Assembly: GCA_016200665.1 (NCBI GenBank)
Contig: JACQEG010000111.1
Coordinates: forward strand, 1-45,800
Origin: Chloroflexota bacterium
GTDB taxonomy: Bacteria; Chloroflexota; Limnocylindria; Limnocylindrales; CSP1-4
Length of the DNA: 45,800 bases
Direction of reading: 5' to 3'
The first letter of the stretch is position 1. Each line of letters begins with the position of its first letter. Shown piece by piece: positions 29,062 to 36,154 of the stretch. The notes beneath the pieces were generated by a model that was not told the DNA's origin, did no database searches, and saw only the letters and a list, made by a program, of their open reading frames with translations. The translations under genes and the position numbers were made by a program.

Positions 29062-29940
29062 TCAGTGCACCTCGGCCGGCTCGAGCTCCGGGCCCAGCGG
29101 CACGGCGAGCGCCTCGTCGGAGACGTTGGTCTCGAGGCCGGCCTCGCGGAGGATCGGGCCGTAGCCCTCCTCCTCGAGCCGCAGCGCGAGGTCGCGCCCG
29201 CCGGTCTTCACGATCCGGCCCTGGGCCAGGACGTGGACGACGTCTGGCTTGATGTAGTTCAAGAGGCGCTGGTAGTGGGTGATCAGGAGCACGCCGAGGG
29301 TCGGGTTGAGCATCGCGTTGACGCCCTCCGCGACGATCCGCAGGGCATCGATGTCGAGGCCCGAATCGGTCTCGTCGAGGATCGCCATCTCCGGCTCGAG
29401 CATCGCCATCTGGAGCATCTCCAGGCGCTTCTTCTCGCCCCCGGAGAAGCCCTCGTTGACGTAGCGCGTGACGAACGTCTCGTCCATCCGGAGGAGGGCG
29501 AGCTTCTCGCGCATGCGCTTGCGGAAGTCGCCCATCGAGACGCCGCCCCGCATCGAATCGGTGGGATCGACGTCGGTCGTCTTGTCGACCCCCTGGAGCT
29601 TGGCGTTGAGCGCGCTCCGGATGAAGCTCGCGACGCTGAGCCCGGGGATCGCGGTCGGGTACTGGAACGCCAGGAACATCCCGAGCCGGGAGCGCTTGTC
29701 CGGCGACAGCTTCAGGACGTCGCGGCCCTTCCAGGTGATCTTGCCGCCAGTGACGACGTAGCCGGGGTGGCCCATCAGCGCGTAGGCGAGGGTCGTCTTG
29801 CCGGATCCGTTCGGACCCATGATCGCGTGGACCTCGCCCGGCCCGACCTCGAGGTCGATGCCCTGGAGGATCTCGTGCTCGGGCGCGGTGACGGGGGCCA
29901 CCCGCAGGCCGCGGATGACCAGCTGATCGGTGTCGGTCAC
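29062..29940 (-). CDS. sufC: Fe-S assembly ATPase SufC
   Basis: MGPNGSGKTTLAYALMGHPGY, FSGGEKKRLEMLQMAMLEPEMAILDETDSGLDIDAL. Confidence 0.95.
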   Translation of the reverse strand: MTDTDQLVIRGLRVAPVTAPEHEILQGIDLEVGPGEVHAIMGPNGSGKTTLAYALMGHPGYVVTGGKITWKGRDVLKLSPDKRSRLGMFLAFQYPTAIPGLSVASFIRSALNAKLQGVDKTTDVDPTDSMRGGVSMGDFRKRMREKLALLRMDETFVTRYVNEGFSGGEKKRLEMLQMAMLEPEMAILDETDSGLDIDALRIVAEGVNAMLNPTLGVLLITHYQRLLNYIKPDVVHVLAQGRIVKTGGRDLALRLEEEGYGPILREAGLETNVSDEALAVPLGPELEPAEVH

Positions 29941-30530
29941 GGGTGGGTCAGGACTCCTTCGGGACGGCTGTCGAGGAGGGTCTCGGGCCGGCGCTGCGGC
30001 ACGAGGTCGGCCAGGGTCATGGTCTCGAGCGCGCCCGCGATCGCGTCGCGCACGCGGATCCAGAGGAAGTTCACGGTGCAGGTCGATGTCCGATCGCAGT
30101 TGCTGGCGTGATCCGGATCGTCCGTCGCGCAGATCATCGGCGCGAGTGGCCCCTCCAGGGCCCGCAGGATCTCGCTCATCGGGATCTCGCTCGGCGGCCG
30201 GGTCAGGGCGTAGCCACCGCGGGCGCCGCGGGTCGAGGTCACGAGGCCGGCGTCGCGAAGGACGAATGCGAGCTGCTCGAGGTAGGCCTTGGGGAGATCC
30301 TCCGCCGCCGCGATCTCGGTCAGCGACGACGGACCGGCACCGAAGCGCCGGCCGAGCTGGACCATGAGCCGCACGCCGTATTCGCCCTTCGTGGAGAACG
30401 CGACCGCACCGGTCCCGTGGAACGCCGGGCGGACCGTGTGGATGGGCGGGCTCAGGGTGCGTACAGACGCGGGCAGCGGACGATCCTCAATCCCTAGTGA
30501 TTTCGTCGGGATTGAGTCTACGGCCACCAT
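29937..30530 (-). CDS. Rrf2-family (IscR/SufR-like) transcriptional regulator; start codon uncertain
   Basis: FSTKGEYGVRLMVQL, LPKAYLEQLAFVLRDAGLVTSTRGARGGYALTRPP; cysteines ICATDDPDHASNCDRTSTC typical of Fe-S-binding Rrf2 proteins. Confidence 0.85.
   Translation of the reverse strand: MVAVDSIPTKSLGIEDRPLPASVRTLSPPIHTVRPAFHGTGAVAFSTKGEYGVRLMVQLGRRFGAGPSSLTEIAAAEDLPKAYLEQLAFVLRDAGLVTSTRGARGGYALTRPPSEIPMSEILRALEGPLAPMICATDDPDHASNCDRTSTCTVNFLWIRVRDAIAGALETMTLADLVPQRRPETLLDSRPEGVLTHP
30486..30516. promoter_or_regulatory. 9-bp perfect palindrome arms, candidate Rrf2 operator
   Basis: CTCAATCCC-N13-GGGATTGAG at the 5' end of rrf2-suf. Confidence 0.65.
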
Positions 30531-30543
30531 CGTGGAGCGTCAA
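30515..30543 (-). promoter_or_regulatory. Candidate sigma70-type promoter of the rrf2-suf operon
   Basis: On the minus strand TTGACG (30543-30538), 17-nt spacer, TAGACT (30520-30515). Confidence 0.5.
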
Positions 30544-30552
30544 CGACCGGGA

Positions 30553-30584
30553 GGGGTAGTAGGTAGGGCGGTCGGAAGTTGCCG
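30553..30584 (+). repeat. Left inverted repeat
   Basis: GGGGTAGTAGGTAGGGCGGTCGGAAGTTGCCG. Confidence 0.8.
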
Positions 30585-30627
30585 ACATCGGCGGCCGCCC
30601 AGCACTGGCGCGAGCCCATTCGTCAGC

Positions 30628-30656
30628 GCATCCGCTCGGGACGCATAAGCGGACGC
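30628..30656 (-). terminator. Candidate stem-loop downstream of the ABC permease gene
   Basis: Minus-strand GCGTCCGCT-N11-AGCGGATGC (9 bp with one G-U); no U-tract. Confidence 0.3.
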
Positions 30657-30699
30657 GGCGGCGGCGCCCACCCAAGGGTGCGGCCGTCACAGTCACGTC

Positions 30700-31566
30700 C
30701 TACACGGTGATATCCCGGCGACCGAAGACGATGGCGGTCGCCGCAAATTCGGCTGCGATGACCAGGGCGAGCGTGGCGAGAGCCACGGGCACGGGAACCG
30801 GGGCGAAGAACGCTGCCCCACTCATTGACGCGTGATTGCTCCCGGCGGGCGCCCCTGCCGCGAGGAGGGCATTGATGAGCTCTGTCGGCATCCAGCGAGT
30901 GACTTCGGGCGGCAGGCCAACGCTTGGCAGGGTGGCGACGACTGCCCAGGCGCCAACGAAGGAGGCAGCGCTCAGGATCACGGAGCGAACGAGGACGGCG
31001 AAGAGCAGGCCCGTTGCCGCTGCCCACACGTTGACGGCGACCAATGCAGCCAGAGTCCCGATAACGCCGAGATCGAAAGCCTCAGCATCAACATATGGCA
31101 AGAGGCCAAGACCGTGGGCTGCGGGCGGGACGGCAACCCCGACCAGTACGGTGCTCGCGGCCACAAGTCCACTTAGGGCGAGGCCCAGAGCCGCCTTGCC
31201 CACAAGGAGCCGAGGGCGGCTACTGTCCCTCACGAGTCGCGTACGAATCGTTCCCGTGTCGAACTCAGAGGCAACCAGCCAGCAGCTCAGCAGTCCGGTG
31301 CAAACGGCGCCGATAGGAAAGGCGTCCAGAGAAACGCTCCCAACACTTGCCCAAAGCTGATACCCACGCTGCAGGAGGACGACCGGGTCGACGCCCCCCG
31401 CAGGGAGCTCGGGGCCGACTCCCGGCGGCGTCGGGGCTGGGAGTAAGAGGAGCTCACGAGCGAGCAGGATCGGAGTGAGGGCGAGAAGCAGGACAGCAAC
31501 GTCTCGTCGCCTGCGTCCCACACGCCACTCAAAGGCGATCGCCTGCATTGTCCGGGAACGCTTCAT
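30700..31566 (-). CDS. ABC-2-type transporter permease
   Basis: Polytopic protein (LLVGKAALGLALSGLVAASTVLVGV etc.); 4-nt overlap with the ATPase gene. Confidence 0.72.
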   Translation of the reverse strand: MKRSRTMQAIAFEWRVGRRRRDVAVLLLALTPILLARELLLLPAPTPPGVGPELPAGGVDPVVLLQRGYQLWASVGSVSLDAFPIGAVCTGLLSCWLVASEFDTGTIRTRLVRDSSRPRLLVGKAALGLALSGLVAASTVLVGVAVPPAAHGLGLLPYVDAEAFDLGVIGTLAALVAVNVWAAATGLLFAVLVRSVILSAASFVGAWAVVATLPSVGLPPEVTRWMPTELINALLAAGAPAGSNHASMSGAAFFAPVPVPVALATLALVIAAEFAATAIVFGRRDITV

Positions 31567-32468
31567 CGATGACCCCGAGCAGCTCTGAGGAATACCTGTT
31601 CAAGGGACTGGCGCACATGGCGCACCTCAGAGGGATAAAGCCCGGCGGTCGCCAGGAGCCCGACTACTGCTGCTCCATCCTCGGAATGCACCCGAAGCAG
31701 GCGCTGATCTGAGTCGTCGCTCTCCGCCCCGATCATCTGGCCGTTTAGGGCCTCCTTGGCCCTTCTTGCAGCCTCCGGGGAATCGAAGCCAACCTGGAGG
31801 TGTGGACGCTGACGCAGCTGATCCTGCGTGCCCTCCGCGACGACCTTGCCTTCGTGGATGATTACCACGGCATCGGCCAGGGCTTCGATCTCCGGGAGAA
31901 GGTGAGACGACAGGAGGATGGCGACCCCCTCGGCCTTGCGTCTGAGAATGGCCTCACGCACCATGGCAACACCTTCCGGGTCGAGGCTTTCCGTTGGCTC
32001 ATCGAGAACCAGGACGCTGGGCCGCCCGCAAAAGGCGACCGCGACTCCAACCCGCTGGCGCATTCCGGATGACAGCGCTCCCACACGCCTGCGGGCGACG
32101 CCCTCCACCCCGAACTCCTTGAGCAGGCGGTCGGACATGCGCGTGATCGAATCTCCACGTGCTGAAAGTGCGCCGTAGATCGCCACCGTCTCGAGGACCG
32201 TGAGATGCGGGTGCAGCGCGGGGCGGGAAACGAGACCTCCCAGCACACCCGGTTCTGGACGGGAGTTTGCCGCTCCATCGAGGACCCGGACCGATCCGCT
32301 CGTGGGATTGAGCAGGCCAAAGCAGACCCGAATGGCAGTCGTCTTGCCGGCGCCGTTGAGCCCGAGGAGGCCCGTCACGGATCCGGCCTGGACAGCGAAC
32401 GACACCTCGGTGAGGGCGTCGATCATACCGAAGCGCTTCGAGATCCGGTCGAACGCAAGCGCGGTCAT
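31563..32468 (-). CDS. ABC transporter ATP-binding protein
   Basis: Walker A LGLNGAGKTTAIR, signature LSSGMRQRVGVA, Walker B VLVLDEPTESLDPEG. Confidence 0.93.
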   Translation of the reverse strand: MTALAFDRISKRFGMIDALTEVSFAVQAGSVTGLLGLNGAGKTTAIRVCFGLLNPTSGSVRVLDGAANSRPEPGVLGGLVSRPALHPHLTVLETVAIYGALSARGDSITRMSDRLLKEFGVEGVARRRVGALSSGMRQRVGVAVAFCGRPSVLVLDEPTESLDPEGVAMVREAILRRKAEGVAILLSSHLLPEIEALADAVVIIHEGKVVAEGTQDQLRQRPHLQVGFDSPEAARRAKEALNGQMIGAESDDSDQRLLRVHSEDGAAVVGLLATAGLYPSEVRHVRQSLEQVFLRAARGHR

Positions 32469-32479
32469 GGGTCGGCAGA

Positions 32480-32514
32480 GGGCGGACGGGGTTGGAAGGT
32501 ACGCCCGTCCGCCC
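32480..32514. promoter_or_regulatory. 11-bp perfect inverted repeat between the Cys-rich secreted protein gene and the ABC ATPase gene
   Basis: GGGCGGACGGG (32480-32490), 13-nt loop, CCCGTCCGCCC (32504-32514). Confidence 0.75.
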
Positions 32515-32529
32515 GTGGGCCTTTGCTTC

Positions 32530-33018
32530 CTAGACCCGGAACTCTTGGGTGAATAGGTCGCGGACCTGTAGGCCGCAACACACGGTTGTCAGCACCGTGT
32601 GGTTCTGAACGTGATAGAGCCCTCCAGCGATCAGGCCGTATTGCTTGCAGCTACCCGATGTGGGCACCCACATTGCCCACGGACTTGAGTACTTGTCCTT
32701 CGTGCAGCCCGCGATCGGGCCGAGAAAGTCGCTCCAGTGGAAGCAGACGCCACCAACGTCGTAGTCGCAGTGCCCGTAGAACACGGCGATGTAGAGATGA
32801 GTTATGTCTCCAGTGCAGCTGTCGTATGCCTGCGCCCACAGAGCGCCCGAGCCGTACTTCCCCCCAAATTCTGTCTGGTAGCACCCCCCATCAGCGCTGA
32901 CGTTCGCGACCAATGGAGTACCCGGAGCCGCGAAGACGAGAAATGCCGGCAGGCAGAGGACAATGGCCCTCAGCCGTCGCAGGAATCTGCTGTTCCGCAC
33001 CACTTCTCCAATCCTCAA
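32530..33018 (-). CDS. Cys-rich secreted protein of unknown family
   Basis: Basic N-terminus plus hydrophobic segment (LRRLRAIVLCLPAFLVFAAPGTPLVA) followed by a mature region with 8 Cys; separate ORF upstream of the ABC pair. Confidence 0.6.
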   Translation of the reverse strand: MRIGEVVRNSRFLRRLRAIVLCLPAFLVFAAPGTPLVANVSADGGCYQTEFGGKYGSGALWAQAYDSCTGDITHLYIAVFYGHCDYDVGGVCFHWSDFLGPIAGCTKDKYSSPWAMWVPTSGSCKQYGLIAGGLYHVQNHTVLTTVCCGLQVRDLFTQEFRV

Positions 33019-33117
33019 TGCTGAGTCTCCGCTGAGTCAGAATGTTGCCTCGGCCCTCCTTCCGTCGCGCGACTGCCCGGTGAGAGGCGCCCACCGACCG
33101 CGCGTTCGACCTCGGTA

Positions 33118-33678
33118 CTACCGGGCCTCCTCGAAAAGGTCCCGGATGCGCGTCTCGAATAGGCCCGCTTTGCGGAGCACCTCGCCTGCGGCGCCCGCGC
33201 TGACACTTAGGGCGACCAACAGGTCGACGGCGCGAGCGGGCCTCTGCTCGGACAAGGCCGCCTCGCCCATCGCTTCGATCAAGGCCTTTGCCTCGGGCCC
33301 GAGCCCAAAGCCGACTGGCCGCGCTCCTTGTCGGGCGAGCGCTGCTTCGACAAGCAGGTCCGGTGCGATTCCAGCCTGAGCTAGCCGCTCCGCGATCGGC
33401 TTGGTCTGGAGCGCGGCGATAAGGAAGTCGGTTGCCTCCACTTGACGTTCGGCCGCGAGCTGGATCGCGACGGCCTCGATCTCGGCAACGCGCGGGTCGT
33501 TGCCGATGAACCGCGTGTGGTCCGTTTCGAGCCTCCTTCCTACAATCAATACTTCGCGGGTGGACCAGCGGATATTCGGATCATCCGCGACACCGAAATG
33601 ACATACGCCCAGATGACCGTCGGCCTCTTCGTTTGCCGATCGGCCAAGGTCACCGGCTGGGGCTGTACGACCATCCAC
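33118..33678 (-). CDS. Clp-N (ClpC R-domain)-like protein; 5' end uncertain, probably begins or is truncated near 33540
   Basis: Two R-like repeats: DPRVAEIEAVAIQLAAERQVEATDFLIAALQ... and GPEAKALIEAMGEAALSEQRPARAVDLLVALS...; the N-terminal part of the ORF is antisense to protease coding. Confidence 0.5.
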   Translation of the reverse strand: MDGRTAPAGDLGRSANEEADGHLGVCHFGVADDPNIRWSTREVLIVGRRLETDHTRFIGNDPRVAEIEAVAIQLAAERQVEATDFLIAALQTKPIAERLAQAGIAPDLLVEAALARQGARPVGFGLGPEAKALIEAMGEAALSEQRPARAVDLLVALSVSAGAAGEVLRKAGLFETRIRDLFEEAR

Positions 33679-33927
33679 CGAGCTGACATTGACTGGCTCG
33701 ATCAGTCAGGAGATCCGCATTGGGGCGTCTGGGAAGTGTCCCACGTCAGTCAGAAGGGTGACAGCGGGGCGGGCTACGTCGCGTTCGAGAGTGACGACAC
33801 GTACGCCAAGCCGGCCGGAATCCTGTTCGGCGGTGACATAGGGCTGGGGGCTCGTTACACCTACTACTACCCGGTCTGGGACGACTGGGCCATCACGGTC
33901 CACGCTTGCGTGACAGCGGCCTGCTAG
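33537..33927 (+). pseudogene. C-terminal half of a trypsin-like (S1, streptogrisin-like) serine protease; no catalytic His/Asp region in frame
   Basis: VGLFVCRSAKVTGWGCTTI...SQKGDSGAGYVAF (catalytic Ser motif GDSG); upstream sequence is Clp-N-like ORF on the opposite strand. Confidence 0.55.
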
Positions 33928-33940
33928 GGAGGAGGGTTTG

Positions 33941-34357
33941 ATGCGAACCACGGCCATGGCGGTGATCGGCGAGGGGGCCTCGATTGCACTGCAGGCCTGG
34001 TTGGCAGCGTCTGGTGCCCTTGGTCTGTCCGGAGACACGGCCAGCGTCGGAGCCATCTGGCTCGCGATGACCGCGACCGTGGCAATCGCGGTGGCCATCG
34101 GCTCGGTAGGACTTCGGCAATCGTCCAGGAGGCGGACCAGCGGCGCGGTCCTGATCGTAATTGGGGCCGTCGCCGCCTACGCCTGGCCAGTCATCACGGC
34201 CGTCGGGAGCCCGCCGCCGGACTTTCTCGACAAGTGGATCCAGGGACCTGCCCTACCCGTATGGGAGGGCCTGGCCATTCTGGTCGTCGGGGTGGTCCTC
34301 GCGATCCGGAAGTCGAGCCCAAGCGTCACGGTGGATCCGGCAGAGGGAGCAGGCTAG
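33941..34357 (+). CDS. Small multi-pass membrane protein, unknown function
   Basis: RBS ggaggagg upstream of ATG 33941; hydrophobic helices (VGAIWLAMTATVAIAVAIGSVGL, GAVLIVIGAVAAYAWPVITAV, GLAILVVGVVLAI). Confidence 0.6.
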   Translation: MRTTAMAVIGEGASIALQAWLAASGALGLSGDTASVGAIWLAMTATVAIAVAIGSVGLRQSSRRRTSGAVLIVIGAVAAYAWPVITAVGSPPPDFLDKWIQGPALPVWEGLAILVVGVVLAIRKSSPSVTVDPAEGAG

Positions 34358-34460
34358 ACCACAAGCGTGGCCGGGCCAGCCAACAGCTTGATCGGGCCAG
34401 CCACACAGCCCCAGGGCCCGTCGAGCCGTCCAGCAGGGTGCCGCCAGGCGACGAGCCGAG

Positions 34461-34492
34461 CGGCAACTTCGGTACGCCCTATCTACTACCCC
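34461..34492 (-). repeat. Right inverted repeat
   Basis: Reverse complement reads GGGGTAGTAGATAGGGCGTACCGAAGTTGCCG; 28/32 identical to the left copy. Confidence 0.8.
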
Positions 34493-35376
34493 GTCAATGA
34501 CCCTGGCCTCGTCGACGGGGCCGTCGGCGAGCCCGGCGCCGGGACTTCCCGCCCGCCGGTCCGCTCGGCGCCGATCCCGGCCACGACGACGCACGCGATG
34601 CCCAGCACGGCGAGCACGTCGGGGACCTGGCTGAGCGCGACGAACCCGATCAGGAGTGCAAACGCTGGCTCGAGGCTCATCAGCGTGCCGAAGGCCGCGG
34701 TCGTCAGCCGCCGGAGGGCGAGGAACTCGAGCGTGTAGGGGATGATCGGCAACAGGATCGCCAGCCCGAGTCCGATCAGCAGCAGCTCCGGGGTCAGCCG
34801 GCCGACCGTGCTCGGCCCGGCCACGATCGTGGCGACCAGCGCCGAAACCGGGATCGAGACGGCGATCGACTTCAGGCCGGCGACCTCGTCGCCAACGTGC
34901 TGGGTCAGGACGATGTACGTGCCCCAGCAGACACCGGCAGCCAGGGCGAAGGCCACGCCGAGGGCGTCCGCAGCGCCGGTCCACGGCTGCGTCAGCAGGA
35001 TGACGCCGACGGCCGCGATCACGGGCCACGCCTTGACGGCCCCGCGACCGCGCGCGACGGCGACACCCAGCGGTCCCAGGAACTCCAGGGCGCTGGCCGT
35101 GCCAAGCGGGAGGCGCGCGATCGAGGCCATGAAGAACAGCGCGGTGCCGGACGTGACGATCCCGAGCGCGACGGTTGCGCGGAACGCGGACGGCGAGAAG
35201 TCCGACGGCCTCGGTCGCACCAGCAGCAGCAGGATCGGGGCGGCCCAGGCCAGGCGCAGCCAGGTCGTGCCCGCGGCGCCCAGATCGTCGAGCAGGTGGA
35301 CGGCGACCGCGAGCCCGAACTGGACGCACAGCATCGACGCGACGGCCATCGACGCGCCAATGCGCGACGCCGACAT
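34486..35376 (-). CDS. EamA/RhtA-family transporter
   Basis: Ten-TM pattern; LGTASALEFLGPLGVAVARGRG and PYTLEFLALRRLTTAAFGTLMSLEPAFALLIGFVAL motifs typical of RhtA-like EamA proteins. Confidence 0.88.
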   Translation of the reverse strand: MSASRIGASMAVASMLCVQFGLAVAVHLLDDLGAAGTTWLRLAWAAPILLLLVRPRPSDFSPSAFRATVALGIVTSGTALFFMASIARLPLGTASALEFLGPLGVAVARGRGAVKAWPVIAAVGVILLTQPWTGAADALGVAFALAAGVCWGTYIVLTQHVGDEVAGLKSIAVSIPVSALVATIVAGPSTVGRLTPELLLIGLGLAILLPIIPYTLEFLALRRLTTAAFGTLMSLEPAFALLIGFVALSQVPDVLAVLGIACVVVAGIGAERTGGREVPAPGSPTAPSTRPGSLTG

Positions 35377-35466
35377 CGCGAGTCCGGGTCTGCTGATGGC
35401 GGTCAAGGCCCTAGTACAACGGCTCCGGTCGCCCGCGTCCACCGGACGTTCCGACGCTCGCCTCGG

Positions 35467-35478: not shown

Positions 35479-35510
35479 GGATCGGACGACTCGTGTGCTA
35501 TCTTCTGCGC

Positions 35511-35771
35511 ATGGCTGTGCGCACGAACCTCCTCCTGCCTGAGGCGCTGGTGGCCGAGGTCGACCGGATCGCCGGGCCTCGAGGTCGGAGTCGATTCGTG
35601 GCCGAGGCCCTCGAAGAGCGCCTCGAACGGGAGCGTCGCCGTGTCGCGGCCCGGGAGGCCGCCGGTGCGTGGCGGGATCACCCCCTGTTTCCGACGTCGC
35701 GCGACGTCGCGGCGTGGGTGCGCGCGGGTCGCGTGGAGCCGGCGAGATCGTCCACGGACGCGAAGGGCTGA
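35511..35771 (+). CDS. vapB: VapB-type ribbon-helix-helix antitoxin
   Basis: MAVRTNLLLPEALVAEVDRIAGPRGRSRFVAEALEERLERE; upstream of a PIN toxin. Confidence 0.8.
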   Translation: MAVRTNLLLPEALVAEVDRIAGPRGRSRFVAEALEERLERERRRVAAREAAGAWRDHPLFPTSRDVAAWVRAGRVEPARSSTDAKG

Positions 35772-35773
35772 TC

Positions 35774-36154
35774 GTGCGTGTCTTCCTCGATACGACGATC
35801 GCGATCGACTACCTCCGAGGTGAGGAGGCGGCACTGGCGCGGATCGCGGGCCTGTTCGAGACGGGCGAAACGGCGATCGTGAACGACGTCGTCGTGTGCG
35901 AGCTCGCCACGGGTGCGCCGTCCGAGGACGACGCAGGGCTCGCGGCGTTCCTGCGGGCCGTCGAGTACGTGCAGCCAGGGCCGGACGTCGCCGTCATGGC
36001 GGGTCACTGGCGCGGCGACGCGAGGCGACGGGGCGTGACGATCAGCGCGCCCGACGCGTTGATCGCCGCCTGTGCGGCGCATCAAGGCGCGACGGTCGTC
36101 ACCCGGAACGCCCGAGACTTCGCGGGACTGCCCGTGAGGGTCGAGACCTACTGA
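35774..36154 (+). CDS. vapC: VapC-type PIN-domain toxin
   Basis: VFLDTTIAIDYLRG, NDVVVCELATG, SAPDALIAACAAHQGATVVTRNARDF. Confidence 0.93.
   Translation: MRVFLDTTIAIDYLRGEEAALARIAGLFETGETAIVNDVVVCELATGAPSEDDAGLAAFLRAVEYVQPGPDVAVMAGHWRGDARRRGVTISAPDALIAACAAHQGATVVTRNARDFAGLPVRVETY

Follow-up and report, generated by a model that had tools for sequence, protein, structure and literature searches.

What kind of element occupies positions 30553-34492 of the window (the whole stretch of 45,800 nucleotides that was analysed), a 3.94-kb islet with inverted repeats at its edges and no recognisable transposase, and by what machinery did it arrive? Very probably, the islet derives from a casposon, bears cargo without being autonomous, and was inserted by a Cas1-family casposase, acting in trans, at a 14-bp target.

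Terminal repeats and composition of the islet

The two arms, found at 30553-30584 (+) and 34461-34492 (-), are 32 nt long and identical at 28 of 32 positions (GGGGTAGTAGRTAG...GAAGTTGCCG), exactly as the initial annotation had described them, and 100 dinucleotide shuffles of the window returned no match. The right arm holds the stop codon of the neighbouring eamA gene, as had been claimed. The weaker similarity that was said to continue inward is absent, with the local alignment of the arms halting at 32 nt and no similarity further in. No additional end was found within 30585-34460, and an Rfam search of the window gave no match. The suspected break in composition is genuine: GC content is 65.4% inside the islet versus 72.1% and 72.7% in its flanks, and its tetranucleotide distance is 0.386 versus 0.135 ± 0.018 (maximum 0.196) in the 137 windows of equal size taken from the rest of the sequence.

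Target duplications and the eamA flank

Outside the arms are 14-bp direct repeats, which the initial annotation had missed, these being the left (GTCAACGACCGGGA, 30539..30552, +) and right (GTCAATGACCCTGG, 34493..34506, +) target site duplications. The two are identical at 10 of 14 positions (by chance, 10 or more matches are expected at a rate of 0.0018 per position), and, as they match only to this extent, the insertion would be an old one. Perfect 14-bp direct repeats lie outside the ends of the counterparts in the family genomes G011 (GTCAAACCTCGCAG), G015 (GTCAACGAGGCCCG), and G106. Read from one side, the duplications start with GTCAA (TTGAC on the other strand), and the remaining nine bases vary. 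TTGAC stands at the duplication edge, within one base, in 25 of 33 ends, as against about 0.6% by chance, and is missing in the other 8 of 33; in the window, the GTCAA edge is at the exact position in both outer 14-mers.

On the right, the eamA gene (34486..35442, -) has a C-terminus, SLTG*, that is built from the duplication and the repeat end, and the homology of EamA to its relatives mostly stops near residue 300 of 318. Adjoining eamA (35493-36154, +) are a small CopG/Arc-like ORF and then a PIN-like ORF, named by eye from the translation, which are probably a toxin-antitoxin pair.

The rrf2-suf promoter as insertion site

The left duplication lies directly upstream of rrf2 (29937..30404, -), which opens the suf operon and whose product matches PF02082 from residue 45. 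The longest rrf2 ORF begins inside the promoter (30404-30530), and since the listed ATG at 30530 falls there, the true start is probably near 30404. This promoter is well formed and consists of a -35 box, TTGACG (30538..30543, -), 17 nt from a -10 box, TAGACT (30515..30520, -), which was read from the sequence and aligned in relatives, together with a palindromic operator, CTCAATCCC...GGGATTGAG (30486..30516), that has equivalents in most rrf2 loci and is probably an Rrf2 site. A strict search for the whole layout was positive in 57 of the 70 rrf2 loci read. The insertion point is the -35 box itself, which is intact; that the left arm abuts it had also been overlooked. In fact, the -35 box TTGAC and the GTCAA of the promoter-side duplication edge are complementary, and so the duplication keeps the promoter whole.

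The preference for this site is directly observed. Counting the genome of the window (G000), the end repeat follows GTCAA and 9-10 nt at the rrf2 -35 box in G000, G003, G011, G015, G031, G101, and G102, and G106 has two copies of this 14-mer beside an end; apart from G000, this makes at least seven family genomes in which the insertion site is used. As to the empty site joining rrf2 to eamA that the initial annotation had proposed looking for, unoccupied rrf2 promoters do occur in relatives such as G002 and G005, with no end and a different neighbour gene, but the exact rrf2-eamA junction was not found in the named genomes searched with EamA, which gave EamA homologues only. At four loci, L105 (G025), L118 (G035), L165 (G036), and L162 (G056), the rrf2 promoter is accompanied by what may be degraded or truncated ends, the sequences being GGGGTAGTTGCCG, GGGGTGGTAGGTGGAGG, and GGTAGTAGTT, with one contig stopping within GTGGGTAG.

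Cargo of the islet

About six genes are carried by the islet, and a recognisable family was obtained for the ABC pair only. This pair, which had been correctly named, comprises an ABC transporter ATPase of 301 aa (31563..32468, -; PF00005, 1.5e-25) and an ABC-2 type permease of 288 aa (30700..31566, -), for which the match to PF12679 (4e-4) is below the cut-off. The other candidates are a small Cys-rich protein of 162 aa with a signal-like N-terminus (32530..33018, -), a possible ORF of 186 aa (33118..33678, -; no Pfam match above the cut-off) that overlaps the next one, a possible protease remnant of 161 aa (33442..33927, +), and a small membrane protein of 139 aa (33938..34357, +). Pfam gave no family for the Cys-rich or the small membrane protein. 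The 'protease remnant' owes its name solely to a GDSGAG motif, which is present, and it too has no Pfam match. The ATPase was considered as a defence gene and rejected, since its PADLOC matches look like generic ATPase matches. By tblastn, neither a Cas1 (casposase) nor a family-B DNA polymerase is encoded in the window.

Copies of the ends in the genome and its relatives

The genome of the window (2.37 Mb, 175 contigs, 82% complete) was searched by end pattern, Cas1, and rrf2. Further copies of the ends, the existence of which had been left as a question, are present: two occur in this genome (G000:C71:30526-30557 and G000:C63:74096-74127; L046, L047), both of them solo, with no partner end within the stretches examined around them, and the end is found in 14 of 107 family genomes, with no match to a reversed control pattern. 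Outside the family but within the class, only four genomes of one family (f4) have it, in a single copy each. Solo ends in Methanosarcina mazei have reportedly been described by Krupovic and colleagues in 2016.

Paired, inward-facing ends are spaced 1.6-17.9 kb apart in G003, G011, G015, G018, and G028. By BLASTN against ten elements of the same kind, the islet has essentially nothing in common with them but the ends, and none of its proteins matches them. In the relatives, the cargo includes an ice-binding protein and a sortase-like protein in G003, a LuxR-type regulator and a fragment of a specificity subunit in G011, a CHRD protein in G018, and type I restriction genes in the G015 and G028 elements.

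Such solo ends, and the tandem arrays at one target that are common in these genomes (G015, G028, G060, and G106), lend something to the explanation that best survives beside our own, namely that the two arms belong to different elements, several casposon-family insertions having accumulated at the rrf2 promoter and been merged by deletion around unrelated DNA. The four differing positions between the window duplications would fit this as well. Against it stand the exact placement of the GTCAA edge in both outer 14-mers, the lack of a further end between the arms, and a composition that is atypical across the whole interval, and we consider such a merger unlikely.

Cas1-encoding elements in relatives

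An autonomous partner with the same ends, as had been called for, is the 17.9-kb element at the rrf2 site of G015, which is flanked by perfect duplications and in which the predicted recombinase is Cas1, not a classical transposase. This Cas1 has 542 aa (PF01867, 3.7e-39) and matches both the M. mazei casposase structure 6opm (4e-18) and the CRISPR Cas1 4n06 (2e-20), with the candidate active-site residues Glu182, His265, and Glu280 also found in the Cas1 of G028. The accompanying family-B polymerase is very divergent, though exo I-III and motifs A, B, and C are present in order; its profile match is weak (0.006), while the G028 homologue matches PF03175 at 1.4e-5. A search of this polymerase against PDB sequences returned nothing relevant, and an AlphaFold2 model from a three-sequence alignment had a pLDDT of 33 and was set aside. 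As it encodes Cas1 and a family-B polymerase between these ends, the G015 element is a casposon, and the islet is directly seen to share its ends while carrying neither gene.

A second Cas1 and polymerase element is found in G028, with a Cas1 that is 55% identical to that of G015, and the two elements have mainly Cas1, the polymerase, and two small ORFs (one HTH-like) in common. Clear casposase homologues are confined to G015 and G028 within the family, with G085 in addition within the class, and IMG/VR gave no casposase relative. At the thresholds used, Cas1 was not found in the genome of the window itself (82% complete, 175 contigs), and the islet is possibly stranded there now for this reason.

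Most cargo-carrying inverted-repeat elements are moved by DDE transposases, and on this general ground an unrelated classical transposase might recognise the ends, with the G015 Cas1 being a mere passenger. Yet no DDE transposase was seen among the genes read in elements with these ends (a non-exhaustive search), the shared content of the two Cas1-bearing elements is as just given, and the duplication length and edge asymmetry are those of casposases, which makes this very improbable. Least credible of all, to the point of near exclusion, is that the repeats represent a regulatory or intergenic motif scattered through the genome, as some solo copies in intergenic or gene-end DNA might suggest, given their paired inward orientation, the unrelated DNA within each pair, the patchy presence in 14 of 107 genomes, and, foremost, the perfect 14-bp duplications outside the repeats in G011 and G015, which contradict it.

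Comparison with known casposons

Returning to the casposon derivative as the preferred reading, we picture a casposase, supplied in trans, that would have recognised the 32-nt ends and inserted the islet at the 14-bp target with GTCAA as the promoter-side edge, after which repair of the staggered cut would have doubled the 14 bp. From the sequences, we infer that Cas1 performed the insertion, that it did so in trans, and that the islet is now immobile in this strain.

The defining features of casposons are Cas1, a family-B polymerase, terminal repeats 25-602 nt long, and duplications of median 15 bp (PMC4046053). The islet has the terminal inverted repeats and the 14-bp duplication (10/14 in the window, perfect in relatives), whereas Cas1 and the family-B polymerase are missing inside it; lacking both, it is not a casposon by strict definition, though it is casposon-like in ends, target, and duplication. 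With the casposases of M. mazei and Aciduliprofundum boonei, duplications are 14-15 bp long and the leader side and first target bases are required (PMC6977970, PMC6614799), the same asymmetry as that of GTCAA here. M. mazei casposons also insert in tandem, and a cargo-only mini-casposon is mobile in vivo (PMC10359463).

Among the closest known systems is MetMaz-C1 of M. mazei (PMC10359463, PMC6977970), with a 31-bp inverted repeat, starting GGGATATAG, that bears a likeness to the islet ends, a 14-bp duplication with a conserved edge (CGCA there), a Cas1 integrase, and tandem insertion at one site. It differs in being archaeal and targeting tRNA-Leu, where the GTCAA edge here is a -35 promoter box, and the islet, unlike MetMaz-C1, is without Cas1 and polymerase. 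The A. boonei casposon (PMC6614799) is alike in its 14-15-bp duplication, for which the leader side and first target bases matter and the far side does not, but it is a complete casposon with a tRNA-Pro target. The artificial mini-casposon (PMC10359463) likewise has foreign cargo between casposon ends; it is engineered, and the islet would be its natural counterpart.

In calling the islet a non-autonomous, cargo-carrying mobile element, the initial annotation is supported by the other copies of the ends, the unoccupied rrf2 promoters in relatives, the autonomous partner, and the break in composition, but 'MITE-like' is imprecise, as MITEs are short and gene-free and the islet carries about six genes. 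MITEs and passenger-carrying non-autonomous transposons do resemble it in having ends without a transposase and being moved in trans, though to our knowledge they use DDE transposases. Described casposons are mostly archaeal and defined by Cas1 and polymerase, and the CRISPR adaptation machinery is considered to derive from them. In the part of the literature searched, casposons were reported neither from Chloroflexota nor with a promoter as target, and we came across no cargo-only form occurring in nature. Such natural derivatives would show casposases mobilising other genes in trans, a -35 box that stays intact after duplication would be a new kind of safe site for casposons, and the conservation of the promoter-side edge has a parallel in the insertion of spacers at the leader end.

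Tandem arrays and a CRISPR-bearing casposon

On contig C86 of G028, successive elements are set apart by the target CCGCCGGCGTTGAC, which is present four times, once with a single change, and whose final occurrence forms the -35 box of a sufU promoter. Tandem elements sharing a 14-bp target were noted at G028:C86:115, 8171, 18804, and 38240, and also in G015:C43, G060:C53, and G106:C311. Elements with different end sequences (GGGGTAGTAG, GGGGTAGTTG, GGGGTAAAG) use one common target.

The promoter-nearest element of C86 (G028:C86:18818-38239; L084, L196, L211) is a 19.4-kb casposon with 36-bp ends (33/36), which are unlike the window-family ends, and 14-bp duplications. In addition to Cas1 and the polymerase, it carries a CRISPR array of 23 repeats and type I-E cas3, cas8e, cas5e, and cas6e, the genes covered by the profile check. 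The locus is without cas1-cas2, for which the stretch from cas6e to the array leaves no room, and no Cas1 other than casposases was found in the G028 genome. Moreover, 3-4 nt separate the stop codon of the polymerase from the first CRISPR repeat, the Cse1 of this locus is missing in the genus-mates G048, G060, and G143, and an Rfam search of L084 gave no match. These array and CRISPR findings come from single draft assemblies.

More tentatively, and short of favouring it, we entertain the possibility that, in these Chloroflexota, a single 14-bp site upstream of iron-sulfur genes takes up repeated casposase insertions at its promoter-side edge, so that arrays may form of kilobase elements, with or without Cas1, between identical 14-bp repeats, spacer-like as in CRISPR. 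The G028 casposon, with its type I-E locus lacking cas1-cas2, would then be a present-day equivalent of the casposon-plus-effector step that has been proposed for CRISPR evolution. With this CRISPR-bearing casposon, a long-debated evolutionary step would become directly testable. G015 and G028 alike have an element with intact Cas1 nearest to the promoter and a decayed one further out, a pattern that, with two cases, is suggestive only.
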